Origin: Streptomyces griseiscabiei
GTDB lineage: Bacteria; Actinomycetota; Actinomycetes; Streptomycetales; Streptomycetaceae
Reading direction: 5' to 3'
NCBI RefSeq assembly: GCF_020010925.1
Contig: NZ_JAGJBZ010000002.1
Location: forward strand, 3,782,001-3,846,000
DNA length: 64,000 bases
Position 1 is the stretch's first letter, and each line of letters opens with the position of its first letter. Below the pieces are notes generated by a model. That model ran no database searches. It was not told the origin of the DNA and was given only the letters and a program-made list of their open reading frames with translations. Shown piece by piece: positions 18,575 to 53,146 of this stretch. The translations under genes and the position numbers were made by a program.

Positions 18575-19555
18575 TCAGGCGGGCTGCCGGCGCTTGAGGG
18601 GCTCCCACCAGTCCCGGTTGTCGCGATACCAGGCGAAGGTCTCGGCCAGCCCGGACTCGAAGTCGTGCCGCGGACGGTAGCCCAACTCGGTCCGCGACCT
18701 GGTGCAGTCGATCGCATAGCGCCTGTCGTGGCCCTTGCGGTCCGGTACCCGCCGTACGCGCGCCCAGGACGCGCCGACTGCCGCGAGCAGCCGCGCGGTC
18801 AGCTCCCGGTTGCTCAGCTCGATACCGCCGCTGATGTTGTAGACACGGCCCGCGACACCGCCGGCGCGGACCAGCTCGACGGCCGCGCAGTGGTCCTCGA
18901 CGTGCAGCCAGTCGCGCCGGTTGAGCCCGTCGCCGTACAGCGGGACGTCACCACCGTCGAGCAGCGTCGTGAGGAACAGCGGGATGATCTTCTCGGGGAA
19001 CTGCCGCGGCCCGTAGTTGTTGCTGCACCGGGTGACCCGCACGTCGAGGCCGTGGGTGCGGTGGTACGCCAGGGCCAGCAGGTCCGAGGCCGCCTTGGAG
19101 GCGGCGTAGGGGGAGTTGGGGTCGAGGGGGTCCCGCTCGGTGCGGGAGCCGCTCTCCACCGAGCCGTAGACCTCGTCCGTGGACACGTGCACGAAGCGGT
19201 CGACGCCGTGTCGCAGCGCGGCGTCCAGCAGGGTCTGGGTGCCCATGACGTTGGTGCGCACGAAAGCGTCGGCGGAGGCGATCGAGCGGTCCACATGGGA
19301 CTCGGCGGCGAAGTGCACCACCTGGTCGGCCTGTCGCATCAGCTTGTCGACGAGGGGGGCGTCGCAGATGTCGCCCCGGACGAATGTCAGCCGGGGATCG
19401 CCGAGATTGAGATTGTCCAGGCTCCCGGCGTAGGTCAGGCTGTCCAGCACCGTGACCTGGGACACCCCGCCGCGCTGTGCGGTGTCGCCCGCGAGCAGCA
19501 TCCGTACATAGGCGGAGCCGATGAAGCCGGCGGCGCCGGTGACCAGCAGATTCAC
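18575..19555 (-). CDS. rmlB: dTDP-glucose 4,6-dehydratase
   Basis: A 326-residue extended SDR enzyme that converts dTDP-glucose to dTDP-4-keto-6-deoxyglucose. It shows the NAD motif TGAAGFIGS near residues 5-13, the STDEVYGS catalytic segment and the SPYAASKAASD YxxxK motif, followed by NNYGPRQFPEK and GDGLNRRDWLHVEDH, all characteristic of RmlB. The start is GTG 19555, which overlaps the rmlA stop (GTGA), so rmlA-rmlB are translationally coupled. The 5' extension of the open frame beyond 19555 is inside rmlA and non-homologous. The enzyme feeds the deoxysugar branch read from the genes to the right. Confidence 0.95.
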   Translation of the reverse strand: MNLLVTGAAGFIGSAYVRMLLAGDTAQRGGVSQVTVLDSLTYAGSLDNLNLGDPRLTFVRGDICDAPLVDKLMRQADQVVHFAAESHVDRSIASADAFVRTNVMGTQTLLDAALRHGVDRFVHVSTDEVYGSVESGSRTERDPLDPNSPYAASKAASDLLALAYHRTHGLDVRVTRCSNNYGPRQFPEKIIPLFLTTLLDGGDVPLYGDGLNRRDWLHVEDHCAAVELVRAGGVAGRVYNISGGIELSNRELTARLLAAVGASWARVRRVPDRKGHDRRYAIDCTRSRTELGYRPRHDFESGLAETFAWYRDNRDWWEPLKRRQPA

Positions 19556-20460
19556 AGCCCCTCCGAAGGAAGCGGACGCACGATGCCCGCCTTGCGCAGG
19601 CGCGCCCGCTCCACGACGTACTCGCCGTAGGGCGAATTGCCCATGCTCGCACCCAGCGCTTGGCAGTCGTCCGGGTCGATGTATCCCATGTGCATGGCGA
19701 TCTCCTCGATGCAGCCGAGGCGGGTGCCCTGCCTGCGCTGCGTGTCCCTCACGAAAGTGCCCGCTTCGAGCAGGGATTCGTGAGTGCCGGTGTCCAGCCA
19801 CGTGACGCCCCTGCCGAGCCACACCAGTTCGGCGGTGCCCATCCTCAGGTAGACGCGCAGCAGGTCGGTGATCTCCAACTCGCCCCGGGGGGACGGCTCC
19901 AGGTCTCTGGCGATGTCCGTGACCTGGGCGTCGAAGAAGTACATCCCAGGGATGGCGAGCTTCGAGCGCGGATTGAGGGGCTTCTCCTCGATGGAGACGA
20001 GTTCGCCCTGCGCGTCGATCTCGGCGACTCCGAACCGCTGCGGGTCGGCCACCTCGTGGCCGAACAGCACACAGCCACCCATCTTGAGCGCCGTGCGCCG
20101 CAGCATGGCGGGCAGGTTGGCGCCGTGGAAGAGATTGTCGCCGAGGACCAGCGCGCACTGCTCGCCGCGGATGTGGTTCTCCCCCACGAGGAAGGCGTCG
20201 GCGATGCCGCGTGGCTCGTCCTGCGCGGCGTATTCGAGGGACAGCCCCAGCTGCCGGCCGTCGCCCAGAAGCGCCTGGAAGGCGGGGAGGTCGGCAGGGC
20301 GCGTGATGACGAGGATGTCCCGGATGCCCGCCAACATGAGCATGGAGAGCGGGTAGTAGATCATCGGCTTGTCGTAGACCGGCGCGAGTTGTTTGGAACC
20401 CGCGAACGTGAGGGGCTGCAGGCGGGTGCCGTTGCCGCCCGCCAGGATGATCCCCTTCAT
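19552..20460 (-). CDS. rmlA: Glucose-1-phosphate thymidylyltransferase
   Basis: A 302-residue nucleotidyltransferase. The N-terminus has GGNGTRLQPLT and the KQLAPVYDKPMIYYPLS stretch that defines RmlA; later FHGANLP, VEEKP-like SIEEKPLNPRS and WLDTGTHESL are also present. It makes dTDP-D-glucose from glucose-1-phosphate and dTTP. ATG 20460 begins with MKGIILAGG, the usual family start. It is upstream of and overlaps rmlB. The 160-base gap to the carbamoyltransferase contains a repeat-like sequence (20577-20626), so whether these genes share one transcript with the carbamoyltransferase is open. Confidence 0.95.
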   Translation of the reverse strand: MKGIILAGGNGTRLQPLTFAGSKQLAPVYDKPMIYYPLSMLMLAGIRDILVITRPADLPAFQALLGDGRQLGLSLEYAAQDEPRGIADAFLVGENHIRGEQCALVLGDNLFHGANLPAMLRRTALKMGGCVLFGHEVADPQRFGVAEIDAQGELVSIEEKPLNPRSKLAIPGMYFFDAQVTDIARDLEPSPRGELEITDLLRVYLRMGTAELVWLGRGVTWLDTGTHESLLEAGTFVRDTQRRQGTRLGCIEEIAMHMGYIDPDDCQALGASMGNSPYGEYVVERARLRKAGIVRPLPSEGL

Positions 20461-20621: not shown

Positions 20622-22634
20622 TCAGGCCGGGGTCAGCGTCAGGTACCGCTGCTGCCAGAGTTCGTACAGCTCGGCACGTACCTCGTCGGGGACGACGCCG
20701 GCCTCCTTCGCCAGCTCGCCGACGGTGCGCACGCCGTCCACGACGCTGAGCAGCGTGAACAGCTCCTCCGACATCCTGGCCACCGGAGCTCCGGCGTAGT
20801 CCAGGGAGATCTCGTGCCAGGCGGGACCTGCCGCGACGGCCCCGGTGCCGAGCCGACGCGCCAGCCTGGTCACCGGCCGCAACCGGGGAACCAGCGCGTC
20901 CAGGTCGGATGATGGGGCCGCCGAACGCCGGCGCACCAGGAAGTCCTCGACCACCAGGTGGTCCAGATCGGTGGTGAGGAAGCACGTCACCACGTCGTCG
21001 ATGGTCTGCACGATCGGCTCTGCGTTGTTGTTGAAGGATGTGTTGAGCAGCACCGGTGTCCCGGTGCGCTCGCCGAAGGCCGCGACGAGCCGGTGGAAGC
21101 GTTCGTTCGCGACCGGGTCGACGACCTGCACGCGCGCGGTGCCGTCGATGTGGGTGACCGCGCCCAGCTCCGGCCGGCGCTCCTCGCGGACGGGAACCAC
21201 GTAGGACATGAAGTCGTAGTTCGCCTCGGTGGCGGGCAGGTCGAAGTAGTCGGCGGCGGCCTCGGCGGTGACCACGGGCGCGAACGGCCGGTAGCTCTCC
21301 CGCTGCTTCACCATCGCGTTGATCCTGGTCTGGTTCTCCGCCGGCCGGGCGTCCGCGATGATGCTCCGGTTGCCCAGCGCCCGCGGGCCGAACTCCGAAC
21401 GTCCTTGCGCCCAGCCCAGGACGGCGCCGTCGGCCAGCAGTCCGGCCGCGACCGGCACGATGTCCTCGTGCCGCTCGAAGTCGAGCACCGCACCCCACGC
21501 GCCCAGGCGGTCGCGGACCTCCGCCTCGGTACCCAGCGCGGGGCCCGAGTTCGCGGTGCGGGACCGGCGGACCGGCCGGGCCGCACCGCCCAGCTGGTCG
21601 GCCGCGAGGAAGGCGGCACCCTCGCTCGCGCCGGCGTCGTGCGACGCGGGGTGCACGAACACCTCGCGGAACAGCCCGGAGCGCAGGATGTTGCCGTTCA
21701 GGGTGGAATTGTGGGCCACACCGCCGCCGAAACACAGCCGGGACAGGCCGGTCGACTCGGCCCAGTGCGTCAGCACGTGCAGCACGATCCTCTCCAGCGC
21801 CTCCTGGGTCGCGGCGGCGAAGTCCTTGTGCTGCTGGGTGAACGGCTCGCCCTTGCGGCGCGGTGTGATGCCCCTCGCGAGCATCGACGGGCCGACCAGG
21901 TCGGGCACCGTCATGTTCGGCAGCAGGTTGTAGTCGCCCTTGTCGCCCAACAGATACAGCGAGCTGACGGCGTCGCGGAAGGTCGCCGGGTCGCCGTAGG
22001 GGGCCAGGCCCATCACCTTGTACTCGTCGCCGAAGCCGTAGCCGAGCAGTTGGGTGGCGTTGAGGTAGAGCATGCCCAGTGACTTGAAGACCGGGTAGTC
22101 GGCCAGCTTCTCCAGCTGTCCCCCGCCTGCCCGGTAGACGGTGCCGGAGTTCTCCTCGCCGCGGCCGTCCAGGACCAGCACCAGCGACTCCGGTATCCCG
22201 GACCTGGCCACCGCCGCTACCGCGTGCGCGTCGTGGTGCGGGGTGAAGACGAGCTTGTCGTCGCCGAGATCCCAGTCGAACTCCTCGGCGAACCACTGCT
22301 TGATCAGCTGGCGGCAGTACACCGTGGGCACCTTCGGGTGGACGGTGTAGAAGAAGTTGAGCGTGGTGTCGACGAAGTCCTCAGGGAAGTAGTACGCCAC
22401 GCCGTCGAGCTGGTCGACCGTCACCCCCGCCACATCCAGGCACGCGCGGATCGCGTTGACCGGGAACTTGGTGGTCTTCTTGATCCGGTTGAACCGTTCC
22501 TCCTCGACGGCGGCGATCACCTCGCCGTCCCGCACCAGACACGCAGCCGAGTCGTGGAACAACTGGTCCGGCATGAGGGGGACCAGATCCGAGTCCCGCG
22601 CGGAGAAGTTTCCGCTCAACCCGAGCACCAACAT
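20622..22634 (-). CDS. O-carbamoyltransferase (NodU/NovN/CmcH family)
   Basis: A 670-residue protein. The N-terminal half has GLSGNFSARDSD, FHDSAACLV, EEERFNRIKKT and HHDAHA, the signatures of the family's YrdC/Kae1-like carbamoyladenylate domain; FGGGVAHNSTLNG and EFGPRALGNRSI follow. The C-terminal part after NNNAEPI is the carbamoyltransferase domain. These enzymes use carbamoyl phosphate and ATP to carbamoylate a hydroxyl. The context (complete olivose pathway plus glycosyltransferase) suggests the sugar 4-hydroxyl. ATG 22634 gives the usual MLVLGLSGN start; a longer open frame upstream lacks homology. A SARP-type promoter lies about 110 bases upstream. The last 37 bases recur at 27869-27909. 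Confidence 0.93.
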   Translation of the reverse strand: MLVLGLSGNFSARDSDLVPLMPDQLFHDSAACLVRDGEVIAAVEEERFNRIKKTTKFPVNAIRACLDVAGVTVDQLDGVAYYFPEDFVDTTLNFFYTVHPKVPTVYCRQLIKQWFAEEFDWDLGDDKLVFTPHHDAHAVAAVARSGIPESLVLVLDGRGEENSGTVYRAGGGQLEKLADYPVFKSLGMLYLNATQLLGYGFGDEYKVMGLAPYGDPATFRDAVSSLYLLGDKGDYNLLPNMTVPDLVGPSMLARGITPRRKGEPFTQQHKDFAAATQEALERIVLHVLTHWAESTGLSRLCFGGGVAHNSTLNGNILRSGLFREVFVHPASHDAGASEGAAFLAADQLGGAARPVRRSRTANSGPALGTEAEVRDRLGAWGAVLDFERHEDIVPVAAGLLADGAVLGWAQGRSEFGPRALGNRSIIADARPAENQTRINAMVKQRESYRPFAPVVTAEAAADYFDLPATEANYDFMSYVVPVREERRPELGAVTHIDGTARVQVVDPVANERFHRLVAAFGERTGTPVLLNTSFNNNAEPIVQTIDDVVTCFLTTDLDHLVVEDFLVRRRSAAPSSDLDALVPRLRPVTRLARRLGTGAVAAGPAWHEISLDYAGAPVARMSEELFTLLSVVDGVRTVGELAKEAGVVPDEVRAELYELWQQRYLTLTPA

Positions 22635-22741: not shown

Positions 22742-22773
22742 AGCCTAGGTGGGACGGATAGCGGATGAATATC
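22742..22773 (-). promoter_or_regulatory. Putative SARP-dependent promoter of the carbamoyltransferase
   Basis: Read on the minus strand: GATATTC, four bases (ATCC), GCTATCC, eight bases, then TAGGCT as a -10. Heptamers 11 bp apart with the 3' repeat eight bases before the -10 is the known SARP geometry. The same module recurs at 27971-28002 with both heptamers and the -10 identical but the four-base spacer different. It is 108 bases upstream of ATG 22634. Confidence 0.75.
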
Positions 22774-22814
22774 GCGGTTCTGTCGACGATCTTGTGACCC
22801 GATGGGTTGGGGCA

Positions 22815-22845
22815 GGCCCGGGTCCCAGGTCCCAGGTCCCGGGCC
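22815..22845. terminator. Hairpin with three tandem GGTCCCA heptamers
   Basis: Eight-bp perfect arms GGCCCGGG (22815-22822) and CCCGGGCC (22838-22845) enclose tandem 7-base units (22821-22841). The stretch 22774-23183 has no gene. The hairpin is about 340 bases past the stop of the 4-ketoreductase and before the carbamoyltransferase promoter, so it may end the upstream sugar transcript; this is an inference. Confidence 0.4.
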
Positions 22846-23183
22846 GGGTGCGTGTCCGCGCCCGGTCCGGTAACGCCGCCGGCAGTGCTGGACAGCCAAC
22901 TCGCTTCCCGAGTGGCCGAGTTCGCGGATCTCCCGGTAGAGCGGACGCCGGTCGGGCTCCTGCCCGGCCGGCCAGGGCCGAGCCGATCTGCGTCAACACC
23001 ACGCGCAGCAGCGCGGTATGCCGACTGTGTCGGGTGGTCAGCCCCAAGACCTGCCCGGCAAAAGCCACCCGTGCAAGCAGGGTTGTCGCGGCGGAAGCGG
23101 CGCACGACTGACCGACATCGCCGACGGCTGGACCGGACGCGCCCGGTCAGGACGGCCATCCTGAAACACCGGCTGGGGCGCGC

Positions 23184-23927
23184 TCAGCCGGCGTAGTCGG
23201 CCACGTACCGGTCGAGCAGCCGATCGAGGTGGCCGGCGCCGCCCGGCAGGACGGCGGTCGGCAGCAGGGCCCGCAACCGGGCGGTGGAGACCGTCGTGCG
23301 CGCCGGCGGGGCGTCGACGACTTCGAGCCGGGCCGGCAGGCCCATCCGAGCCCGCACCCCGGCGGCGATCGCCGTCACCGGAACCGGTGTGCCGGAGGCG
23401 ACGTGCACCACCTCGCCGTGCACGCCGGCCGCCAGCAGACCGTCCACGGCGGACACGACATCGCGCACGTCGACCAGATCTCGGTAGGTGTCCCGGTACA
23501 GTCGGACGGTTCCCGACCGCACCTGCTCGACGAACGCGGGCAGCAGTTGGTGCTGCCGCTGTCGTGCGCCGACGACGTGCGTCAGCCGCAGCACGAGCCA
23601 GTTCGCGCCCGAGTCCGCCACCTGCCGCTCCAGCCCGAGTTTGTGCCGCCCGTAGGGCGAACCCGGCGCGACGGGTTCCCGTTCCTCCACGATGTGGTCG
23701 GTCGAGCCGTACATCGCGTGCGACGCGGTCGACAGCACCACCGCGGTCAGGTTCTCCCGCAGGCAGCGCCGCGTCACCTCGGCCATGAGCGCCCGCTCCC
23801 TGGCGAACTCCGCCGGATCGGTCACCCGTGTGCTGGAGACACCGGCAGCCACCACCACGGCGTGCGGGTGCCGGTCGGCGATCGTGCTGAGGTGGCTTGC
23901 GATGAAGCCCCGGCCGATGACGAGCAT
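23184..23927 (-). CDS. dTDP-4-keto-hexose reductase (NAD-dependent epimerase/dehydratase family)
   Basis: A 247-residue extended-SDR protein. The N-terminus LVIGRGFIASHL carries the nucleotide-binding glycines, and SPYGRHKLG supplies the YxxxK pair. It is short for the extended SDR class but in the range of deoxysugar 4-ketoreductases. The ATG overlaps the stop of the upstream 3-ketoreductase (ATGA), so it is the last gene of a four-gene unit: glycosyltransferase, 2,3-dehydratase, 3-ketoreductase, 4-ketoreductase. The expected role is reduction of the C4 ketone of the dTDP-2,6-dideoxy sugar, giving dTDP-D-olivose; stereochemistry cannot be read from the sequence. Confidence 0.85.
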   Translation of the reverse strand: MLVIGRGFIASHLSTIADRHPHAVVVAAGVSSTRVTDPAEFARERALMAEVTRRCLRENLTAVVLSTASHAMYGSTDHIVEEREPVAPGSPYGRHKLGLERQVADSGANWLVLRLTHVVGARQRQHQLLPAFVEQVRSGTVRLYRDTYRDLVDVRDVVSAVDGLLAAGVHGEVVHVASGTPVPVTAIAAGVRARMGLPARLEVVDAPPARTTVSTARLRALLPTAVLPGGAGHLDRLLDRYVADYAG

Positions 23928-24976
23928 CAGTGTCCTCCGGACACGGTGACGACGCGAGCGGATGCCCTGATGGCGTCAAGAAGTTCGGCGGTGCACAGGG
24001 TGTCGGCGTCGGACGCCGCTGCCGAGTCCGGCACGCCGGCTCGGCGGGCTCGGACCTCGGCGGCGAAAGCGGCAGCCGACCGGGCGAACTGGTCGGCGGC
24101 CGGCGTCACGATCTCCTCGGCATGGTCCTGTTCATCGATGCGCAGCACCGGCTGGTGGGTCGCGGGTGGGGTGAACGCGCGCTCCAGCAGCAGTTGGGCG
24201 GACGAGCCCCACAGCCGGTAGCGGGAACCGTAGCTGTGCCGGAAGCCGAACTCGGCCGTCACGACCACGTTGCCGGTCGTGAGCAGCACGCTGCCGGACA
24301 CGTCGACCCCGGTGACCGGATCCACCTGCAGCACCGCGCCGGCGACGTCGATCTCGTTGCCGAACAACAGTTGTGCCGCCCGGATCGGGTAGACACCGGC
24401 GTCCAGCAACGCGCCGCCGCCCAGTTCGGGCCGGTAACGCACGTCGGCGGCGGGAAGCGGCGGGAAGCAGAACGAGCCGGCGAAGTGCCGAGGCTCGCCG
24501 ATTCGGCCGGCGGTCACCAGGTTCCGCACGACGGCGTGCACCGGGTGGTGCAGGAACGTGAAGTTCTCCCGCAGCGCGAGGTTGTTCACTTCGGCCAGGC
24601 GCACCAGATCAGCGGTGTCGGCGGCGCACGTCGTCAGCGGTTTCTCCGCCAGGACGTGCTTTCCGGCCGCGAGCGCGGCGGAAGTCCACTCGTGATGGAG
24701 GGAGTTCGGCAGTGGGACGTAGACGGCGTCGATGTCGGCGCGCTCCAACAGCGCCGCGTACCCTTCGATCGGCTCGCCGCCGAACCGCTCGGTGAACGCC
24801 GCGGCCCTGGACCGATCCCGGCTCGCGACGGCCGCGACCGTCACCCCGGCCGTACCGGTCAGAGCGGGGAGCATGCGCCGCCACGCGATGGATGCCGCCC
24901 CCAGCACACCGATCCGCACCGTCGCCGCCGGGTCGAAGCCGGCTCCGGGGGCGGGTTCCGCGAGAGGCCGGACCAT
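23927..24976 (-). CDS. NDP-hexose 3-ketoreductase (Gfo/Idh/MocA family)
   Basis: A 349-residue oxidoreductase. The N-terminal Rossmann motif is IGVLGAASIAWRRM near residues 22-35. HVLAEKPLTT is the EKP motif with the conserved Lys, and GGGALLDAGVYPIRA carries the GxxxDxGxY signature with the catalytic Tyr. It pairs with the 2,3-dehydratase: together they remove the C2 hydroxyl and reduce C3. ATG 24976 overlaps the dehydratase stop (ATGA); the first about 18 residues precede the fold and are proline-rich. The stop likewise overlaps the next ATG. Confidence 0.92.
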   Translation of the reverse strand: MVRPLAEPAPGAGFDPAATVRIGVLGAASIAWRRMLPALTGTAGVTVAAVASRDRSRAAAFTERFGGEPIEGYAALLERADIDAVYVPLPNSLHHEWTSAALAAGKHVLAEKPLTTCAADTADLVRLAEVNNLALRENFTFLHHPVHAVVRNLVTAGRIGEPRHFAGSFCFPPLPAADVRYRPELGGGALLDAGVYPIRAAQLLFGNEIDVAGAVLQVDPVTGVDVSGSVLLTTGNVVVTAEFGFRHSYGSRYRLWGSSAQLLLERAFTPPATHQPVLRIDEQDHAEEIVTPAADQFARSAAAFAAEVRARRAGVPDSAAASDADTLCTAELLDAIRASARVVTVSGGH

Positions 24977-26475
24977 CAGGCGCCCCCACCCGGCGCGACC
25001 GGAGCGTCGTCGTCGAAGCGAGCCACGAGGCTGTGCAGGCACGCCACCAGACTGCGGGCCTGCACGTTCACGTAGTCGCTGTGCCGGAGCAACCCGACGA
25101 TCTGGGCCATGGTCATCCACCGGTGCCGGGCCGGTCCGGCACCGTTCGCCACCACCGGGTCGACCTCGACGATCATGTGCCGGGTACGGGCGTGGAAGAA
25201 CCGGCCGCCCTCCTCGGAGAGTTCGGTGTCGAACCGGATCCGGTCGTCCGGCGCGGCCAGCACGTCGTCCAGGAAGGGCGGCCTGGCCTCGGCCGGCAGG
25301 TGCTCGTAGTTGTCCGGCGTGCACCGCACCGTCGGCGCCAGCTCGACGAAGTCCAGGCCCGGTTCCACCTGGGCGCCGACCAGGATGTGCAGCACCCCGG
25401 AGAACCGGGCGACCAGGAACGCCACGAGGCCGATCCCGTGCGGGGCGAGGATCGGCTGCGTCCAGCTGTCGATCTCGCGGCCCCCGCCGTCCACCGCGAC
25501 CGCGCGGATGTCGAAGAAGGCGCCCGTGTCGTGAGTGATCCGGTCGGGCCGCCGGCGCCAGCCGCGCACCTCGCACAGCGGGATCGGGGTGGCCTCGACC
25601 TCGCGGCGGGACCGCAGGTCGGTGATCCAGCTCAGGATCTCGCCGTCGGTGTGCAGTGCGCCCCACTCCGTTCCGATCGACCGCACGAGGGCAGCCCGGA
25701 ACTCGGACGTGCCACGGCCCAGCTCGTCCACGAGGTTCGGTCCGGAGAAGGACAGGCAGGACAGCACCGTGCGCGTGTTCATGTTGACCACGTGGTCCTC
25801 GGTGAGCAGCGCGCGCACCTGGCCCAGCGACAGCCAGCAGAAGCCGGGCAGCACCTCGACGTCCGCGGTGGTCTCCACGACGATGTTGCGGTTGCGTTTG
25901 CGGTAGAACCACGAGCCCTGCTCGGACTGCAGCACGTCGGCGAGCACCGACCGCGGTGGCGCGGACAGGAACAGGTCCAAGTAGGGCACCGGGCGGCCGC
26001 GGTGTACGGCGGTGTAGTTGCTCTGCGTGGCCTGCACGGTCGGGGAGAGTTGCAGCACGTTGCAGTTGCCCGGCTCCATCTTGGCCTGCATCAGGCAGTG
26101 CAGCACCCCGTCGAACTCCTTGACCAGGATGCCCAGCACGCCGGTCTCCGGCTGATTGATGATCGGCTGTGACCAGCTCGCCACCGGGCCGTGAGCGGCG
26201 GCCACCGACAGGCCCTGGATGGCGAAGAACTTTCCGCTGTCGTGCACCAGGTTGCCGGTGCCGTCGGCGAAACGCCAGCCGACCAGGTCGGCGAAGTCGA
26301 TACCGGCGACCGTGGTGGTCCTGGCCATGGCCAGCCGTTCGGCGAACCAGGACCGGAAGTCCGGTGTGGCCGTCACGGTGCCCCGGGTGGACAGTGCTGA
26401 TCGGACGACACGCAGCGCCGCCGACGGGTCGTGGGTCCGAAGCAGACCACCGGGGGTGACCGGGGATGCGGTCAT
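24976..26475 (-). CDS. NDP-hexose 2,3-dehydratase
   Basis: A 499-residue protein built of two homologous halves, as is usual for the TylX3/EvaA family. Each half has a W-x-x-D/H-D-T/S-G-x-F-F motif (HDSGKFFAIQG in the first, HDTGAFFDIRA in the second), a QPI(I/L) segment (WSQPIINQPETG; WTQPILAPHGIG) and an (E)PG/QLSPTVQAT or ELAPTVRCT strand. It starts at ATG 26475 after GAAGGAG. The family eliminates the C2 hydroxyl from dTDP-4-keto-6-deoxyglucose. It is 107 bases downstream of the glycosyltransferase and overlaps the 3-ketoreductase. Confidence 0.95.
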   Translation of the reverse strand: MTASPVTPGGLLRTHDPSAALRVVRSALSTRGTVTATPDFRSWFAERLAMARTTTVAGIDFADLVGWRFADGTGNLVHDSGKFFAIQGLSVAAAHGPVASWSQPIINQPETGVLGILVKEFDGVLHCLMQAKMEPGNCNVLQLSPTVQATQSNYTAVHRGRPVPYLDLFLSAPPRSVLADVLQSEQGSWFYRKRNRNIVVETTADVEVLPGFCWLSLGQVRALLTEDHVVNMNTRTVLSCLSFSGPNLVDELGRGTSEFRAALVRSIGTEWGALHTDGEILSWITDLRSRREVEATPIPLCEVRGWRRRPDRITHDTGAFFDIRAVAVDGGGREIDSWTQPILAPHGIGLVAFLVARFSGVLHILVGAQVEPGLDFVELAPTVRCTPDNYEHLPAEARPPFLDDVLAAPDDRIRFDTELSEEGGRFFHARTRHMIVEVDPVVANGAGPARHRWMTMAQIVGLLRHSDYVNVQARSLVACLHSLVARFDDDAPVAPGGGA

Positions 26476-26582
26476 GCGGACTCCTTCGTGCGACTCGCGA
26501 GGGTCGGATCTCTCCGCTGCGACCGGGAGAGCGGTCAAGGTTCCTCCGGTTCCGGCTGGGGAGGGGCTGTCACCGGAAGCCG

Positions 26583-27836
26583 TCAGCGCCAGGTGACGGC
26601 GTGCTTCTCGATGACGTCCGCGGCGGCGGCCACGCCTCGATCGGCGAGCACCGCCGCCGCCAGCTCCGCGGCCCGAGTGGCGATCGCCGGATCGTCGATG
26701 GCGGTGCGCACGGCGGCGGCCAGCCGGTCGCCGGTCAACCGGGAGAACGGCACCGGCGGCGGTGCGACGCCCAGCGCGGCCATCCGGCTCGCCCACACCG
26801 GCTGGTCGGCAAAGCAAGGTACGACGACCTGTGGCACACCGGCGGACACCACGGCCGCGGTGGTGCCCTGGCCGCCGTGGTGCAGTACGGCGGCGGCGCG
26901 GGGCAGCAGCCAGACGAAGTCGGCGCTCTCGGTCCGGATCGCCTCGACGCCGGCGGGCAGCGGGCCGTCCGGGCCGCCGACGACCAGCAGCCGGTGTCCG
27001 GTCGTCGCCGCTGCCGCCACGCTCGCCGCGAGCAGGCCGGGACCGTCCACCGCCCAGGAGCTGCCGAAGGTGGCCACCAGCGGCGGATCGCCGCGTTCGA
27101 CGAACTCGGTCACCTCCGCCGGATTGTCCCAACGCATGTTGTCCGACCAGTACCCGGTGATGTGACAGTGCTCCGGCCAGTCCGCGGGCGGCGCGAACAC
27201 GTGCGGGCTGAACTGGTACAGCAGCGGCCGGGTGACCCCGTCGTCGCGGAACGGTGAGCGGAGCCCGAGCCGCGGCAGCCCGGCGGCGGTCCGGCCGCGG
27301 TTCACGCTGGGCCGGTACACCAGCCACTCCAGCGTGCCCATGGCCCGGTGGGTGAACCGGTTGTAACCGCCGCCCAGCGACAGCTCCGGCGCGCCCAGCG
27401 CGGGCCACGCGGCGGTCTCGGTCACCGGCCAGGACGCGACCGAACACCACGGCACGTCCGGCCGGGCCAGCGCGCCGATCCGGGTCAGCGTGGTGTTGAC
27501 GACCATGTCCGCGCCCTCACCGGCGGCCACCATCTCGTCGATCAGGGCCTGCTGCTGGGCACCGGTCAGCCGTGGCGCCGCCATGGCCATCCGGTACATC
27601 GACGGCCCACGCCGCAAGGCGGCCTGCACCTTCGGATCGCGCAGCACCGAGTCGGCGTACCCGGCGGGCAGCGCTTCGAGAGCCCGGAAGCCGAGACCGG
27701 CCCGGTCGGCCAAGCCCTTGAACTCCGCCCCGGCCGCCAGCACCACCTCGTGCCCGCGAGCCTTCAGCTCGACGCCGAGCACCACGAACGGCTGCACGTC
27801 ACCGCGCGAACCGATGGTCAGCAGGACGATCCGCAT
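26583..27836 (-). CDS. Macrolide glycosyltransferase (GT1 family)
   Basis: A 417-residue GT-B enzyme. The N-terminus LTIGSRGDVQPFVVLG is the family's first strand and loop, and the C-terminal donor site is HHGGQGTTAAVVSAGVPQVVVP followed by FADQPVWA. ATG 27836 lies six bases after GAGGAGA; an in-frame ATG at 27857 is less likely. It is first in the minus-strand unit with the 2,3-dehydratase and both ketoreductases, and has a SARP-type promoter 135 bases upstream. The expected reaction is transfer of D-olivose (carbamoylated before or after) to the macrolide aglycone. Confidence 0.93.
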   Translation of the reverse strand: MRIVLLTIGSRGDVQPFVVLGVELKARGHEVVLAAGAEFKGLADRAGLGFRALEALPAGYADSVLRDPKVQAALRRGPSMYRMAMAAPRLTGAQQQALIDEMVAAGEGADMVVNTTLTRIGALARPDVPWCSVASWPVTETAAWPALGAPELSLGGGYNRFTHRAMGTLEWLVYRPSVNRGRTAAGLPRLGLRSPFRDDGVTRPLLYQFSPHVFAPPADWPEHCHITGYWSDNMRWDNPAEVTEFVERGDPPLVATFGSSWAVDGPGLLAASVAAAATTGHRLLVVGGPDGPLPAGVEAIRTESADFVWLLPRAAAVLHHGGQGTTAAVVSAGVPQVVVPCFADQPVWASRMAALGVAPPPVPFSRLTGDRLAAAVRTAIDDPAIATRAAELAAAVLADRGVAAAADVIEKHAVTWR

Positions 27837-27868
27837 CGTTCTCCTCGAGTCCGTCACTCCGCCGGACA

Positions 27869-27909
27869 GGCGTCAGGCCGGGGTCAGCGTCAGGTACCGC
27901 TGCCGCCAG
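27869..27909 (-). repeat. Second copy of the carbamoyltransferase 3' end
   Basis: A 41-base stretch with 40 identities to 20618-20658, in the same orientation. It encodes the last residues and stop of the carbamoyltransferase (QRYLTLTPA) without the rest of the gene. It sits between the glycosyltransferase start and the promoter at 27971. Confidence 0.85.
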
Positions 27910-27970
27910 TGGTCCTCACCCGTCGATGAGCCGACAGCCCGCCCGCCACCGAGCACTCGCGGCCGGGCCG

Positions 27971-28002
27971 AGCCTAGGCGGGACGGATAGCGTCCGAATA
28001 TC
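27971..28002 (-). promoter_or_regulatory. Putative SARP-dependent promoter of the glycosyltransferase operon
   Basis: Minus-strand order: GATATTC, GGAC, GCTATCC, eight bases (GTCCCGCC), TAGGCT. Heptamers and -10 are identical to the copy at 22742-22773, the eight-base spacer differs at one position and the four-base spacer at most positions. The distance to ATG 27836 is 135 bases. The rest of the 27837-28533 gap holds the 41-base repeat, a 13-bp tandem repeat and a hairpin; no gene is visible in it. Confidence 0.75.
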
Positions 28003-28248
28003 GCCGGACAGCGGAACCCGGCGACCTTCGGCCGACGGGTCTCGTCGTGGTCGTGGTGCGGGTGCGGGAGCCGCGCACGGGGTCTCACCGCCGACCGAGG
28101 TCGCCCACGAGGTCGCCCACAGAGCGGGCTTCGAAGGCGGTTCGGACGGCGGTCGTGCACTGATCACCGGCGAGCGCCGTGCCTGTTCTGCTTCCCGGGG
28201 AACATCCCTGCCCAGGACGGGACATGACGCGACGTCATATACGGGACT

Positions 28249-28533: not shown

Positions 28534-29202
28534 TCAGGCGTCCTTGCGCCGGGCGAGCGTGATGCCGTCGGCCATCGTGAGCATGCTCAGGTCCACCCGC
28601 TCGTCCGCGCGCAGGCGGGCGTTGAGTTCACGGATGCCCTCGGTGTCGGCGTCCGTGAACTGCGGATCGGTGACCCGGCCGAAGAAGAGCGTGTTGTCCA
28701 CGACGACGAGGCCGCCGGGTGCGAGCAGTTGCAGGGACAGTTCGTAGTAGCGCGGGTAGTTCGCCTTGTCCGCGTCGATGAAGACCAGGTCGAAGACGCC
28801 CTGTCCCTCGTCGGCGAGCAGCTTCTCCAGGGTCTCCGCCGCGTCGCCCACCCGGAGGTCGATCAGCTCGTCCACCCCGGCCCGCTTCCAGAACTCCGCG
28901 CCGATCGACGGCCAGCGGTCGGTGATGTCGCACGTCACCAGTCGTCCGTGGGCCGGCAGGGCGCGGGCCATGCACAGGGTGCTGTAGCCGGTGAAGGTGC
29001 CGATCTCCAGGACCGTGGCCGCCCGGGTGAGCCGGACCAGCAGCGCGAGCAACTGCCCTTCCTCCGCGGGCACCTGCAGGGCGACACCACCGGGCAGCCC
29101 GGCCGTCGCTTCGCGCAGTTCCAGCAGGATCTCGTCCTCGCGCAGCGAGGTCTGCCGGACGTACTCGAGAAGCCGAGGCGTCATGCCGATCTGCTCAGCC
29201 AT
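28534..29202 (-). CDS. SAM-dependent O-methyltransferase (FkbG-like, methoxymalonyl-ACP)
   Basis: A 222-residue class I methyltransferase of the Mg-dependent catechol/caffeoyl-CoA O-methyltransferase family. [11 protein letters not shown] is the SAM-binding motif near residues 66-76; [14 protein letters not shown] carries the metal-binding Asp and the conserved DADK, and [12 protein letters not shown] the following DN. It starts at ATG 29202 with GGAG seven bases upstream. The methoxymalonyl set at 15044-18453 lacks a methyltransferase, and FkbG belongs to this same family, so it most likely methylates hydroxymalonyl-ACP. A 7-base tandem repeat (CCCGGAG x4, about 28503-28530) follows the stop. 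Confidence 0.9.
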
Positions 29203-29329
29203 GGGGGATCTCCGTCCCGGTGGGAGTCGGTGGGAGTCGGTGTGAGCGGCACGCCGGGCGGCGGGGGAGCGCCGGACGACGAGCCGGGCGTGCTGGGGTA
29301 CGGACCCGCCTCGGCGTCGTTCCGCGCGG

Positions 29330-29653
29330 TCAGCGCCCGGCGTGCCCGGGAGCGGGGGAGACCTCGGGGCCGTGGCCGCCCACACCCTCGTCGTCCGCGC
29401 CGTGCCACAGCCTGACGTCGTAGGGGACGTCGGAGACCGCAATGGTGGCTCGTTCTCCGGCCGGCGGGCGGGCCGGCACGGCGTCGGCCGGTTCACCGAC
29501 GAGTGCGCGGACACGGAGGCGCAGCCTTTCCACGTCGTCGGCCAGTCCGCTGAGCGTGGGAGGCTCGCCGAATCCGGCGGACCGCAGCGAGCCGACGCAG
29601 CGCGCCAGCCGGTCGACGGTGCGAAGCAGTTCTCTGACGGCGGCTGGCGGCAT
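29330..29653 (-). CDS. Small hypothetical protein between thioesterase and O-methyltransferase
   Basis: A 107-residue protein not recognised from sequence. ATG 29653 has a good ribosome site (GGAGGAAG) about six bases upstream and lies 20 bases after the thioesterase stop, which supports translation. Residues 1-53 are Leu/Arg-rich with heptad-like spacing and could form a helical or coiled-coil segment; the remainder is Pro/Gly-rich with no cysteine pairs, signal peptide or membrane segment. Position between two pathway genes suggests a pathway-linked or structural role, but no function can be given. Confidence 0.6.
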
Positions 29654-32161: not shown

Positions 32162-32275
32162 CGGCTGCGGAGAAGGTTCCACCCACTGTCGCGTCGGGTG
32201 GTGCGCGCCCAGCGTGCCACGGGGGAGCTCGCGATCGACGGAATCGCATCATGTTTTCGTAGGGGTGAGGCAGTT

Positions 32276-34381
32276 ATGGAGTTCTTGTTGTTAGGTCCCC
32301 TGGTCATCCGGTCGGGCGGGCACGAGCTGAGGGTGCCCGCCGCGAGGCAGCGGGTGATTCTCGCCGCTCTCGTGCTCAACGCGAACCGAGTGGTCCCGGT
32401 GGACAACATCGCGAGCTTTGTCTGGGACGGCACCCCGCCGCCCAGCGCCGTCGCCACGATCCGCACCTATGTCATGAGGTTGCGTCAGGTCCTGGGCCTG
32501 GCCGGGAGGGCGCGGATCACCACCCGGGCGCCCGGCTATCTGATCGAACTGGAGGAGGACGAGACCGACCTCGGGCGGTTCACCGTGCACCGGAAGACCG
32601 CCGACGCCCTCGTCCGGGCGGGCCGCACCGCGCAAGCCGCCGAGGAACTCCGCAAGGCGCTCGCCCTGTGGCGGCACGACCCGCTGATGGACGTACCCTC
32701 GCGCGCCCTTCAGGACATGGAGGTCTCGCATCTGCAGCGGCTCCATCTGCAGACCCGCATCTGGTGCGTGGACCTCGACCTCGATCTGCAGCGCCATGCC
32801 GAGATCCTGCCCGAGCTGTGGCAGATGGTGCGGGAACACCCGCTCCACGAGGGGCTCATCGGCCGTCTCATGCTGGCGCTGTTCCGCTCGGGCCAGCAGC
32901 CGGAGGCCCTCGACCTGTTCCAGCGGACCCGCGCCGCGCTCATCGACCAGCTCGGCACCGAGCCCGGCTCCGAACTACGGGCCGTCCAGCGGCGCATCCT
33001 GCGCGCCGAGGACGAGCCGCCGCGGCCCCGGGCCGCCTTCGAGGAGCGCCCCGAGGTGCACGGCGGCCCCGGCCGGGCCTGGCCCGGCTGGCCGACCCCC
33101 GCCCAACTGCCCCAGGGCGTCGCCGACTTCACTGCCCGAGACCGGGAGACCGCGGCGCTGGGACGGCTGCTGCGCGGCAGGGCGCCCGCCGCGGGCCCGG
33201 CCACCACGGTCGTGATCAACGGTGCCGCCGGCATCGGCAAGACCGCGCTGGCACTGCACGCGGCCCACGCCGTCCGCGGTGACTTCGCCGACGGACAGGT
33301 CTACGCGGACCTGGAGGGCAGCACGGGGAAACCCGCGCAACCCGCCGAGGTCCTCACCCGCTTGCTCGTCGGCCTCGGGGTGCCCGATGTCGCGGTGCCG
33401 AGAACGATGGTCAACCGCACCTCGCTCTTCCGGTCCCTGGTTGCCGACCGCCGCATGCTCATCGTGCTCGACGACGCCGTGAGCACCGCCCAGGTCCGCC
33501 CCCTCATCCCGGGCAGCGGCGGAAGCAGGGTGATCGTCACCAGCCGCCACCGGCTCGCCGACCTCGAAGGGGTCCACGACGTCACCGTGGACGCGCTCGA
33601 CGAGGAAGCCTCGCTGCACCTGCTGGAACGATTCGTCGGTCGTTCCCGTGTGAACGCCGAACGCGCCGCCGCACACCGGCTCGTCGAAGCGTGCGCCGGT
33701 GTGCCGCTGGCCCTGCGCATCGTCGGCACCCGGCTGCGCGCACGACCCCGCCGCGGCCTCGGAGCCCTGGCCCACCGCCTGCTCGAACAGCGGCGTCTGC
33801 TCGACGAGCTGCACATCGGCGACCTGTCGGTCCGCACAGGACTCGACGCGGGATACGCCGCCCTGCGCGACCGGTCCGTGCACGGCATCGATCTCGCGGC
33901 GGCGTTCCGCAGACTCGGCGCGGGCAACATGCCGTACGTCCGCGGCGAGACCGCCGCGGCGCTGCTCGGCTGCTCCCGGGAGAACGCCGAGGACGTGCTC
34001 GACGTACTGGTCGACGCCCACCTGCTGCGCGAGCACGACCACTTCCGCTACCGCCTCGACGCCCTGGTGCGCGCGTACGCCCGTGAACGCGCCGACGCCG
34101 AGGAGGGTCCGGAGTACCAGGTGGACACAGTGCGCTGCCTGCTCCGGTGGTATCTGCACACCCTCTTCCGGAGCGCTCGCCCGGACCGGACGGGGGAACC
34201 GGAAGGGACGTACCTCCTGCGCCCGCCGACCGTGAACTGGACGGACGACGACCGCGCCGGACTCGTCGAGGCCCTCGCCGAGGCGGACCGGATCGGCGTC
34301 GACCTGGTCGGCAGCCGACTGGTCGGTGAACTACGGGCACGGCTGCCACCCGTCGTGGCGTCCCGGGCCGCGTCCAGGTGA
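32276..34381 (+). CDS. SARP-family transcriptional activator with NB-ARC domain (AfsR/DnrI type)
   Basis: A 701-residue regulator. Residues 1-95 are the winged helix DNA-binding domain (MEFLLLGPLVIR start, RQRVILAALVL, RTYVMRLRQVLG), 96-245 the bacterial transcriptional activation domain, and about 290-560 a STAND/NB-ARC ATPase with Walker A GAAGIGKT and LIVLDD. The start is ATG 32276 after GGGGTGAGG; an upstream GTG at 32198 is unlikely. Codon 6 is TTA (32291-32293), the rare Leu codon read by bldA tRNA, so translation should be developmentally controlled. It is the obvious candidate to bind the heptamer promoters at 22742 and 27971. Confidence 0.93.
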   Translation: MEFLLLGPLVIRSGGHELRVPAARQRVILAALVLNANRVVPVDNIASFVWDGTPPPSAVATIRTYVMRLRQVLGLAGRARITTRAPGYLIELEEDETDLGRFTVHRKTADALVRAGRTAQAAEELRKALALWRHDPLMDVPSRALQDMEVSHLQRLHLQTRIWCVDLDLDLQRHAEILPELWQMVREHPLHEGLIGRLMLALFRSGQQPEALDLFQRTRAALIDQLGTEPGSELRAVQRRILRAEDEPPRPRAAFEERPEVHGGPGRAWPGWPTPAQLPQGVADFTARDRETAALGRLLRGRAPAAGPATTVVINGAAGIGKTALALHAAHAVRGDFADGQVYADLEGSTGKPAQPAEVLTRLLVGLGVPDVAVPRTMVNRTSLFRSLVADRRMLIVLDDAVSTAQVRPLIPGSGGSRVIVTSRHRLADLEGVHDVTVDALDEEASLHLLERFVGRSRVNAERAAAHRLVEACAGVPLALRIVGTRLRARPRRGLGALAHRLLEQRRLLDELHIGDLSVRTGLDAGYAALRDRSVHGIDLAAAFRRLGAGNMPYVRGETAAALLGCSRENAEDVLDVLVDAHLLREHDHFRYRLDALVRAYARERADAEEGPEYQVDTVRCLLRWYLHTLFRSARPDRTGEPEGTYLLRPPTVNWTDDDRAGLVEALAEADRIGVDLVGSRLVGELRARLPPVVASRAASR

Positions 34382-45191: not shown

Positions 45192-45493
45192 ATGCGTTCT
45201 CACTCGGTGCCGTGGGAGCTGATCGGCCGCAAGGTCGGTGTCCGCTCCACCGCCACGATGGTCCAGGTCTGCCACGACGGTCGGCTCGTCAAGACTCACA
45301 CCACACTTGGCCAGGGAAAGCGCACCGACAAGAGCCACTGTCCGCCGGAGGAGATCGCTTTCCGGATGCGCACGCCGGTCTGGTGCCGCAGCCAGGCGTT
45401 CGAGGTCGGTGACGCCTGCCGCAAGGTCGTCGACCAGCTGATGGAGGTCTATGTGCTCCATCGACTCCGCGCTGCCCACGACGTCATGCTCAT
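45192..45493 (+). pseudogene. IS21-type transposase (IstA) C-terminal fragment
   Basis: About 100 residues (VPWELIGRKVGVRSTATMVQV, PEEIAFRMRTPVWCRSQA, LMEVYVLHRLRAAHDV) match the C-terminal Mu/IstA region. The catalytic DDE core and the partner IstB are missing. The similarity ends where the convergent protease-STAND gene ends (45490), so this gene may have been cut during insertion of that block. Confidence 0.65.
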
Positions 45494-48400
45494 CCTCGGT
45501 GATCGCGCAGCCAGTCCGGTACGCCGCCGGTCAGTTCGCGGACGAGATCGGCCACAGTGGGATCAGCCTGGTACGCGTCGACCAGCGCCGCCGCCAGACG
45601 TAGACCCGTCTCCCGGTCCTCGGCCTCCTGGGCTCTGCCCAGTCCTTCCAGCAGCGGCCGTACGCTCTCCCGCGGGCGCAGTGCCGCCAGCACCATGCCG
45701 TGGAGCAGCAGGGCCTCCACCTCCTCGTAGGCGAAGGCTCCGGCGTCGTCGGTGGCGAGTTCCCTGCGGAGTGCGAGGGATCGCGCCGCGAACGGTTCAG
45801 CTTCGGCCGCCCGCCCCTGTTCCAGGAGTACCGCCGCGTGGTTGCGGGACGCGTCGGCCAGCGCGCTCCGCGTCCCGGGGCCGCCGTGCGCGTGCAGGTC
45901 CTCCAGTGCGTCGACGGCGCCGCGTCCCACCTCCACGGCCTGCCGGTCGTGACCGCACTCCGAGAGGGCGACGGCCCAGCCGTCGGCGGCCCGGGCCCAG
46001 GCGAAGCCATGAGTGCGCGGCGCGGCCGGTCGCAGCGCGCCGTAGAGTTCGACGGCTTCCCGGGAGCGCTGCTCCGCCTCCTCCCAGCGGCCGAGAGGCC
46101 CCAGACAGCGGGCTAGACAGTGCAGTGTGGCGGCACGGTCACCGGCGTAGGGGTCGGCCGGCCCCGTGGCCAGGCCTTCGTATGCCCGGTGAGCCTCGCC
46201 CGCGTCGTGGAGGGCGCGTTCGTAGGAGCCGGTGTCCACCAGGAGATCGGCGCGGGTCGCCAACGCGGCGGCGAGCGGGCGCACATGGGCATCGGGGTAC
46301 CGGCTGGCCAGTCGGCGGTAGTGGACGACCGCCCGGTCGACCGCGTCGATGGCGGCGTCGTACTCGGCCAGTTCCGCGAGGCACACGGCTTGGGCCAGCA
46401 GCGCGGCGGCGTTCTCGTCCTCATGGGCCGACACCGTCCGTGCGGGAAGTTCCGCGTAGATGGCGACGGATTCGGCGCTCGCCTCAGCGGCGTCCACGAC
46501 CTGTCCGAGGCTGGACAGGTGGTGGGCGTATCCGGTGAGGGCCACCGCGAGCGCGGCGCGGGAGACGGGTCCGTCGGCCAGTTCGCGCCGTAGGGCGACC
46601 GCGCGCTCGGCGGATGCCAACGCGTCCTGGCGACGGCTCTGCAGATGGAGCTGGTGGGCGTACCCCTCGTGCGCGGTGGCCAGATCGTGCGCGTAGCGGC
46701 CGGGTTCTCGACCGGCGATGCCCTCGTAGAGCCGTACCGCCATCGCGCCGCGCTCCAGTGCCTCGTCGTGCATGCGAACGGCGGTCAGCCAGTGGGCGTG
46801 GTCGTTGAAGGCGGCGGCCAGCCGCGCCCAGGCGGTGTGGTCCGGCTGTTCACCGAGTGTCTCTCCGGCCAGGGTGACCAGCGTCCCGGCGAGTTCGGCT
46901 CCCCACTCCGACAGGTTGCGGGAGTGCGCGGGCAGCCTGGTGAACATGGTCCGCAGGAGCGTGCCGTCGTCGGGGTGGTCGCGCAGGACCTCGGCGAGGG
47001 CGGTGTGCAGGGGGCCGGGTTCCGGTCCGCCGCTGGTTGCCGCGGTCACGGCCGGTCCGGCGAGCCGCTGAGGGTGGCGGACCACGACGGAGTGCAGGGG
47101 TCCGCCGAGCCGGTCGTGCCGAGGGGCTGCCCGGGCGGCCACCCGTAGAGCGTCGGTGGCCTGGGCGGGCGGCGCCGTGGCGAGCAGTTCGTCCAGCAGC
47201 TCCGGGCGATGCCCGACGGCGAGTCCTACGAGGTGCTCCCCGATGCGGTCGGGGCGCAGTGGCCCCCAGAAGGTGTTCGGGTCGGGATAGAGGGTGGCGA
47301 GCCAGTCCGCGGCGGGGCCGACGGGACCGGGTGGGGTACCGGTGTCGGTGACGTCCGGTGTCCCGGGCGTGAGGGTGGACAGGCGGGCCAGGATGTTCCG
47401 GGCCTCGTCCCGGTCGGCGGGTGAGCCGCACAGGGTGGCCGCGGCGACCAGCTCTCGCCGGGCGCTCAGGGTCAGGGCCCCCAGCCCGTGGCTGTGTGCG
47501 GTGTGCCGCCAGATCTTCTGCTCATGGCGCAGCAGTACGCCCTCGTACGGTTCGTCCGCCGGGCCGTCCTCGGGGTCGAGCGCCTGCAGCAGCGCGACCA
47601 GGGCCGCCATGTGCAGGTCCAGGGCCCGATGATGACGGGGGTCGCTCAGATCGGGAACCACCAGGGTGCGCAGGACGGCGGGGTCCACGGGCGCCGTGAC
47701 GCCGGGCAGGCCGGTCAGTGCCGCGGCGAGGTTCTCACCGATCTCACGGAAGGCGGTGTCGTCCAGTGGCTCTGTGCCGTCGCCGTAGAGGTCGAGCAGC
47801 TCCATCTCCGTCCCGGGTGGCGGGTCGCGCAGGGGAAGGGCCTCGCTGCACAGGTTCTCCCACCAGTCGCCGGCTTCCTTGTCCCGGGCGAGCAGCAGCA
47901 GCCGCAGAGCCGTGGTGCCGCTGTGTTCGTACCGGTCGACCAGGTCGAGGAGGGTCTGGAGTTGCTCGACCCTCGTTTCGGCGTAGTCGACGACGAGCAG
48001 CAGCGGGGTGCGGGTCTCGGTGGCCAGGGGCAGAAGGTCCGGGGCCGCTGCGGCGGCCAGGAAGCCTGCGCTCCAGTTCCGTAACCGCAGACGGCGGACG
48101 AGTTCCGCGGCAAGCCGGGTCTTGCCCTGACCGCCGGGTCCGGTGACCAGCCGTACGGAGAACCGGCCGGGCTGTTCGCACCAGGCGCCGAGGCGGGCCA
48201 GGACGTCCTCGCGTCCGGTGAACGGTACGACGGTCGCCTCCGGCCTGAGCAGGGAGACGGGGGTGTTGGCCGGTCGGGACGGCTCCCGTTCCAGCAGCGG
48301 CTGGAGTTCGGCCGGTTCGGTGACGGCGTGCGGGAACAGCGCGCGGAAACCGGGGTCGGCCAGGAGTTCCTCGGCCGGTATGGCACGGGCCCTGCCGTGA

Positions 48401-49035: not shown

Positions 49036-49232
49036 CGCTCGGGCAGCTCGTCTTCTTCGTCGCCCACTTCGGAGAAGTTGGACCATGTCTCGCCGTTCAG
49101 TTCGTCGAGGTCCGTGTCCTGGAGGGTGGGGTCGGCGGCCTTCTGCGCGGGCGCGGCGGGCGTGGGCGCCGACGGCTGCGGGGTCGGAGCGGCTTGGGCG
49201 GCCTGCTCCGAAGTCCTGGGTTTCTTGGGCAC
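49032..49232 (-). CDS. 66-residue partner of protease-STAND copy 1, ending DELPER
   Basis: GTG 49232 with AAGGGAG seven bases upstream gives a 66-residue protein: a basic start (MPKKPRTSE), a Pro/Ala-rich linker (residues about 11-35), and an acidic C-terminus with WSNFSE and the ending DELPER. A longer frame to GTG 49280 lacks a ribosome site. Its TGA overlaps the GTG of the protease gene. No family is recognised. The last residues match the end of the Trypco2 partner at 52668 although the rest does not, so the tail may be recognised by the partner protease (inference). Confidence 0.65.
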   Translation of the reverse strand: MPKKPRTSEQAAQAAPTPQPSAPTPAAPAQKAADPTLQDTDLDELNGETWSNFSEVGDEEDELPER

Positions 49233-49419
49233 GTTCGAACTCCCTTGGCGGGGTGGCCGTTCACCGGGGATGCCGTTCACCCGGGGTGCGTCGGCCTCAG
49301 CCTAGCGGCGATATGCCGCAATGGTCTCCACCCGGACGACGCGGTGATCGCCCCTCTGCCCGAGTGATCCCACAGTGACAATTTCCCTGTCCGACCAATC
49401 ACGCAAAGGCGGTTGGCGG

Positions 49420-52994: not shown

Positions 52995-53146
52995 GTCATC
53001 CCCCTGTCGTACTGCGTCGGTCAAGCCATCGTTACCCACCGGAAGTACCCCGTCACCCTGTCTCACACGGTCTGCCACCCCGCCCCGCACTGTCTGTCAG
53101 GATGGGGCTCCGGAGCGTGCGTGGAACCGGTGGGGTGGGGGAGCGG

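Follow-up and report, generated by a model that had tools for sequence, protein, structure and literature searches.

Paired heptamer repeats upstream of the deoxysugar operons in a Streptomyces griseiscabiei concanamycin cluster as predicted operators of the SARP ConR2

The window analysed here, 64,000 nt of the 10.6-Mb genome of Streptomyces griseiscabiei (G000:C2:3782001-3846000, G000 denoting this genome), contains the end of a modular polyketide synthase (PKS) and methoxymalonyl genes, together with a minus-strand set of seven deoxysugar genes. It also encodes an O-methyltransferase, a thioesterase, a SARP and a crotonyl-CoA reductase. To its left lie the remaining PKS genes and a LuxR-type regulator that occupies the position of ConR1. 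On its gene content this is assigned as a concanamycin cluster: PKS, methoxymalonyl genes, crotonyl-CoA reductase, the seven-gene carbamoyl-deoxysugar set, ConR1 and ConR2 were all found. Two short modules precede the glycosyltransferase (GT) and carbamoyltransferase (CT) genes of the sugar set, and are considered here as candidate operators of the SARP. The relevant features are as follows.

27971..28004, minus strand: candidate operator-promoter of the GT operon, with a predicted transcription start at about 27964 on the geometry of afsS
22742..22775, minus strand: candidate operator-promoter of the CT operon, with a predicted start at about 22735
26583..27857, minus strand: GT, the first gene behind the 27971-28002 operator
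24976..26450, minus strand: NDP-hexose 2,3-dehydratase (start approximate; piece scanned 24976-26400)
23927..24994, minus strand: Gfo/Idh/MocA-type sugar reductase
23184..23927, minus strand: NAD-dependent epimerase/ketoreductase-type protein (KR), the last gene before a 550-bp gap to CT
20622..22634, minus strand: CT, the first gene behind the 22742-22773 operator
19552..20460, minus strand: glucose-1-phosphate thymidylyltransferase (rmlA type)
18575..19552, minus strand: dTDP-glucose 4,6-dehydratase (rmlB type)
32198..34381, plus strand: SARP, the ConR2 orthologue, containing BTAD and NB-ARC domains (translation probably starts at ATG 32276)

Read along the minus strand, the GT site comprises GC (28004-28003), repeat 1 GATATTC (28002-27996), the spacer GGAC, repeat 2 GCTATCC (27991-27985), an 8-bp gap GTCCCGCC and the -10 hexamer TAGGCT (27976-27971). 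The CT site has the same plan: GC (22775-22774), GATATTC (22773-22767), the spacer ATCC, GCTATCC (22762-22756), an 8-bp gap GTCCCACC and TAGGCT (22747-22742). The first-pass annotation had described these positions on the minus strand, with identical heptamers at an 11-bp pitch, an 8-bp gap, a shared TAGGCT and differing 4-bp spacers, and all of this proved exact. The two heptamers have G-TAT-C in common (5/7), making each module a pair of heptameric direct repeats, and the 8-bp gaps agree at seven of their eight bases. At both modules the -35 region is poor and overlapped by the repeats, the best hexamer found by eye at spacings of 16-18 bp matching TTGACA at 3/6 positions.

The window has more such sites than chance would give. 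When up to three of the 14 heptamer bases may be mismatched, it contains four matches, as against a mean of 0.72 in shuffled sequence, where none of 100 shuffles reached four. The exact heptamer pair occurs at two places in the genome, which are solely the GT and CT modules; with up to two mismatches there are 15 places, compared with one for the reversed control. One match of 12/14 (G000:C2:3720223) was dropped for want of a -10. Among 392 Streptomyces genomes, 69 contain the motif with up to one mismatch, and exact copies are present in G000 (two), G296 (two; this is S. scabiei, having the same SARP coordinates as S. scabiei 87.22) and G167 (one). The G167 copy (L074:11494, minus strand) was dismissed as chance: it has no NANNNT at 8 bp, the best SARP match is 41%, and neither the GT nor the O-methyltransferase has a close relative in that genome.

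A search with the GT protein identified five loci with a relative, four in Streptomyces (S. neyagawaensis, S. scabiei 87.22, S. stelliscabiei and Streptomyces sp. MNU76, which with S. griseiscabiei give five Streptomyces concanamycin clusters) and one in Nocardia. The genes shared with the four other Streptomyces are 84-99% identical (79% in one O-methyltransferase segment). The search in related clusters suggested by the first-pass annotation recovered the exact pair in all four, both sites being present with fixed spacers, GGAC at GT and ATCC at CT. A third in-register repeat, GCTGTCC, lies 10 bp 5' of GATATTC at the GT site in S. griseiscabiei, S. neyagawaensis and MNU76; this was rejected as part of the operator, being absent at the GT site of S. 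scabiei and S. stelliscabiei and at the CT site. One sugar promoter could in principle be a recent copy of the other, alike through ancestry without function, and the match does run on through the 8-bp gap and the -10; however, flanks and spacers differ, the spacers are fixed per locus across the five clusters, and in divergent genomes the site, in relaxed form, is found ahead of genes that are not homologous, leaving this reading with almost no probability.

The relaxed form was sought by scanning the whole S. griseiscabiei cluster, and the parts of the other four Streptomyces clusters outside the PKS interior, for GMTAYNN-N4-GMTAYNN, with ten half-site positions scored and a YANNNT -10 at 8 bp. 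Full sites (10/10 with the -10) precede the first PKS gene (PKS1), GT and CT in each of the five clusters, giving 15 sites, and no further full relaxed site with a -10 at this distance was present in the scanned stretches. Hence the attribution of these promoters to the sugar genes stands for GT and CT, but has to be extended to PKS1 in all five clusters. The S. griseiscabiei PKS1 site (G000:C2:3725927-3725958, plus strand) lies 56 kb outside the window on its left side, and its first base is 92 bp from the likely ATG. Between species, PKS1 sites vary at position 5 of repeat 1 (C/T) and position 2 of repeat 2 (A/C), as well as at one base of the spacer and at isolated bases of the 8-bp gap; the repeats of the sugar sites also diverge from each other at these repeat positions. 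Half-site pairs in nine concanamycin stretches are found 16 times at a pitch of 11, the next most frequent being a pitch of 12 (five cases), a pair which was set aside as it represents a single place inside the coding sequence of the Gfo/Idh reductase. Also dropped was a 10/10 half-site pair in MNU76 (L101:1166, -10 TCTCAT), outside the cluster and with no gene assigned. Simulating the 162 kb from S. griseiscabiei 60 times with a third-order Markov model gave no full sites, compared with the three observed, although this figure is not independent, because the consensus was derived from the same sites.

Since the four named clusters are close relatives, stronger evidence lies in divergent ones. 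In Nocardia sp. SYP-A9097 the GT, SARP and PKS1 proteins are 66%, 49% and 65% identical, and the GT locus (L044) has no site with three or fewer mismatches to the exact heptamers. It nevertheless has a relaxed site (9/10, -10 TACGGT), so the exact heptamers proposed as the operator by the first-pass annotation, while real sites, are too strict a definition, and the working consensus became C-GMTAYNS-N4-GMTAYSS-N8-NANNNT. Another Nocardia site precedes the O-methyltransferase (10/10, -10 CAGCAT), and the prediction of one upstream of PKS1 was then checked, revealing GATATCG-ggac-GATATCG-8-AATGAT. A matrix trained solely on the PKS1, GT and CT promoters of the Streptomyces concanamycin clusters placed the PKS1, GT and O-methyltransferase sites at top rank on their three respective Nocardia contigs; on a fourth, carrying a ConR1 homologue, nothing clear was found (top score 13.5).

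Further clusters were taken from the nine of the 392 Streptomyces genomes with an O-methyltransferase match at E 1e-95, namely S. griseiscabiei, G296 and seven others, for which 60 kb around the gene was extracted. Two of these seven methoxymalonyl clusters encode a ConR2-like SARP (G158, 62%; G094, 53%), and for these the PKS1 starts were added. By gene content our guess is that G158, which also has a crotonyl-CoA reductase and a ConR1 homologue, is virustomycin-like, and G094 bafilomycin-like. The top-ranked matrix match is upstream of PKS1 in both G158 (140 kb) and G094 (120 kb), the distance from site start to start codon being 103 bp in the former and 136 or 172 bp in the latter; the chance of a top rank falling in a 200-bp target is about 0.0007-0.02 per stretch. 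A site also lies upstream of a 5-aminolevulinate synthase gene (TIGR01821), likely to serve C5N decoration, ranking second in G094 (L163:5004) and third in G158 (L138:2051). Top scores were clearly above all five column-permuted controls in some stretches. The five clusters without a SARP match, used as controls (G091, G165, G245, G351 and G372; 60 kb each), had top scores of 12.6-15.2; a 10/10 match in G165 was discarded, having no -10. A match at G094:95176 (10/10 half-sites, GAGAAT) has no gene assigned, and was left out of the set of ten distinct promoters.

Across those ten, the C before repeat 1, G1 and A4 of repeat 1 and G1, T3 and A4 of repeat 2 are invariant, as are A2 and T6 of the -10, site selection favouring some of these bases; repeat 2 is separated from the -10 by 8 bp in all ten, the sites having been partly selected by this distance. 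An approximately 32-bp block fixed beside a -10-like hexamer might in principle belong to an alternative-sigma promoter, in which GATATTC/GCTATCC would be the -35-like element of an extracytoplasmic function (ECF) sigma factor rather than an activator site. This is most improbable given that there are two equally spaced repeats, that A2 and T6 of the -10 are constant as in sigma-70-type promoters, and that a ConR2-like SARP is encoded in each of the eight clusters with sites (the five Streptomyces concanamycin clusters, Nocardia, G158 and G094). In the five, G158 and G094, the SARP is encoded in the same contig stretch as the sites, the exceptions being the S. neyagawaensis PKS1 site, which is on another contig, and Nocardia, where sites and SARP are spread over several contigs.

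The SARP in the window is 93% identical to ConR2 of S. scabiei. The statement that the cluster encodes exactly one SARP agrees with the single SARP match within it, the nearest other in the genome (31% over 121 residues) lying about 68 kb further left than the ConR1-type gene; but that gene (G000:C2:3721231-3724092), outside the window, means that the SARP is not the only regulator of the cluster. A LuxR-type domain is recognisable by eye in its product, and orthologues 84-93% identical are present in the four other Streptomyces clusters. The ConR1-type gene contains five TTA codons and the SARP gene one (codon 32 of the open reading frame), and therefore both may need the bldA tRNA.

In S. 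scabiei, conR1 and conR2 are both reported to be needed for detectable concanamycins, and expression of conR2 from another promoter rescues a conR1 mutant, but not the reverse (PMC12648119). These genetics fit an operator read by ConR2 at the PKS and sugar promoters. The motif could instead be bound directly by the LuxR-type (LAL) ConR1, which is likewise essential in that report and is found together with ConR2 in each of the five Streptomyces clusters and in the Nocardia genome. However, direct repeats that recur every 11 bp and stand 8 bp before the -10 have the anatomy of a SARP site, and overexpressed ConR2 bypasses loss of conR1 (PMC12648119). Furthermore, G094 has sites and a ConR2-like SARP, but its 120 kb yielded no match to ConR1 at E 1e-15. 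In G091 a ConR1-type match (39%) is present without any SARP match within 60 kb, and the best matrix matches lack a full -10. Given G094 and the published genetics, ConR1 is very unlikely to be the reader.

ConR2 as the reader is also consistent with the proteins themselves. The eight SARPs are identical at positions 46, 48, 74, 79, 80, 81, 87, 88, 91, 92 and 94 of those through which AfsR contacts DNA, position 95 being variable, and all have the recognition helix RTYVMRLR; R92 may contact the G at the first heptamer position. T88 and R92 do not single out the ConR2 clade, because AfsR has both. Another host SARP, above all AfsR, could be proposed to read the sites, which would then belong to a global regulon and not to one specific to the cluster: AfsR-type repeats have a TATCG/YATCG core in common with them, and an AfsR-like SARP of S. 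griseiscabiei (L010) has all 12 AfsR contact residues. Of the eight paralogues from this genome that were compared, L011 and L027 were disregarded, as they had been translated out of frame. Yet, in the alignment used, the ConR2-type repeats have G where AfsR contacts T, a position at which a T-to-A change stops AfsR binding (PMC10936776, in which G was not assayed), the exact sites are confined to the cluster within the genome, and relaxed sites go with ConR2-like SARPs in the clusters examined, which makes AfsR a very unlikely reader.

The SARP-type character proposed in the first-pass annotation is thus borne out by the afs-box geometry, the relaxed sites at divergent orthologues and the invariant SARP contact residues in eight clusters. 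From these comparisons, it is very probable that the modules are SARP-dependent promoters and the predicted operators of ConR2; for these we infer direct ConR2 binding, start sites and sigma adaptation. No operator for ConR2 or BafG, the bafilomycin regulator, was found in the open-licence literature searched.

Several observations weigh against this conclusion. The five Streptomyces clusters are so closely related that exact conservation of the sites is by itself not very strong evidence, and the CT leader is conserved too (140/146 bases between S. griseiscabiei and S. stelliscabiei). The consensus was built from the sites themselves. In G158 the top score of 16.2 is close to the best of five column-permuted controls (16.1), and the 5-aminolevulinate synthase site ranks only third (12.7), below a match not assigned to a promoter; on the Nocardia contig with the O-methyltransferase (C33), the top score of 15.6 falls below that of a permuted control (16.3). 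In S. griseiscabiei, upstream of the genes for the thioesterase, the O-methyltransferase, the crotonyl-CoA reductase, the SARP and ConR1, the matrix gave no match with a score above 9, even though loss of conR2 is reported to abolish all product (PMC12648119). This implies read-through, another regulator, or weaker sites missed by the scan.

Two natural breakpoints add to the evidence from conservation. Upstream of GT, the likeness between all five clusters stops about 20-25 bp 5' of repeat 1, three of the five sharing slightly more. In the S. griseiscabiei gap between KR and CT there is about 341 bp of foreign sequence (22776-23116) flanked by two copies of GCGAT, the second of which is the beginning of the CT operator. 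The foreign piece is probably an insertion inside CT repeat 1, and the complete operator survives because the GCGAT bases were duplicated. Two parts of it are 77-78% identical to G000:C2:2379713-2380618, and it is perhaps the remnant of a mobile element; the same gap is also missing some upstream sequence present in S. stelliscabiei. At both the GT and CT breakpoints, the conserved block begins at the operator. The sugar set as a whole is inverted in S. scabiei (L042, L104-L106) and lies beside conR1 in S. stelliscabiei (L043, L107-L110), with both operators retained in each; the differing placement in these species is also stated in PMC12648119. In S. scabiei there is no crotonyl-CoA reductase match behind the SARP (L106, to G394:C1:9408000), unlike the other three relatives.

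Two observations concern neighbouring annotation. The O-methyltransferase open reading frame at 28534-29514 (minus strand) is probably over-long, as relatives align from about residue 100, giving a frame of about 225 residues. Adjoining the cluster at 45490-57865 are three large trypsin-like, STAND NTPase/TPR-type proteins and a Trypco2-domain protein, perhaps forming a defence-type island.

A mechanism can be suggested in which ConR2 would occupy the two 11-bp direct-repeat units (heptamer GMTAYNS) as a side-by-side dimer, at promoters that lack a good -35. The bound SARP would keep region 4 of sigma-HrdB, along with RNA polymerase, on the weak -10 (NANNNT) that follows exactly 8 bp downstream, in the manner of AfsR at the afsS promoter. 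Because a relaxed form of the operator also precedes PKS1, one SARP could activate the backbone and the two sugar operons at once; carrying two operators of its own, the sugar set would stay wired to ConR2 wherever it is placed. This offers a reason why the subcluster changes place and orientation between species yet keeps pathway control. More broadly, we consider it somewhat more probable than its negation that plecomacrolide clusters share one regulatory socket, consisting of ConR2/BafG-clade SARPs with a frozen helix and a C-GMTAYNS-N4-GMTAYSS box at PKS1, into which unrelated cassettes (the carbamoyl-deoxysugar; the C5N ring from 5-aminolevulinate synthase) have been captured as movable units with their own boxes. 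If so, the gain, loss or movement of a cassette would yield a different compound under unchanged control. Concanamycins play a part in the virulence of a scab-causing Streptomyces, and ConR2 is essential for their production (PMC12648119); the candidate ConR2 operator, which also fits the virustomycin-like and bafilomycin-like clusters examined, is accompanied here by a residue-by-residue comparison with the solved AfsR complex.

Operator-promoters of the afs-box type are a known kind, within which the ConR2 operator proposed here would be new and unusually specific. The closest parallel is AfsR at afsS in S. coelicolor (PDB 8hvr, 8jke, 8k60), where AfsR binds two 11-bp repeats between -40 and -19 as a side-by-side dimer and gives region 4 of sigma-HrdB a new docking place (PMC10936776), the repeat being CGTT(T/C)ATCGNN (PMC10972967). 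The ConR2 sites likewise consist of two 11-bp direct repeats, and the AfsR repeat aligns with C-GMTATCG over YATCG/TATCG, although the first heptamer position is G in ConR2 sites and T in those of AfsR. If the afsS -10 is read as -12 to -7, eight bases separate it from the last conserved repeat base, as here, and the -10 is weak in both systems (CACTGT at afsS, CAGAGT at PKS1). The two proteins have the SARP and NB-ARC architecture and the base-contacting residues T88 and R92 in common; ConR2 is shorter, at 727 residues compared with 993, being without the C-terminal length of AfsR, and differs from it at contact positions 46, 48, 80, 81, 91 and 95. The operators of PimR, SanG and PolR (CGGCAAG) are also heptameric direct repeats with 4-bp spacers, but with a different heptamer sequence, and PimR, whose operator contains three repeats, binds upstream of the -35 region (PMC3367932). 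Finally, ConR2 in S. scabiei and BafG in bafilomycin biosynthesis are both described as positive activators (PMC12648119, PMC7827423), and the SARP encoded in G094 (53%) may, at a guess, be BafG itself.

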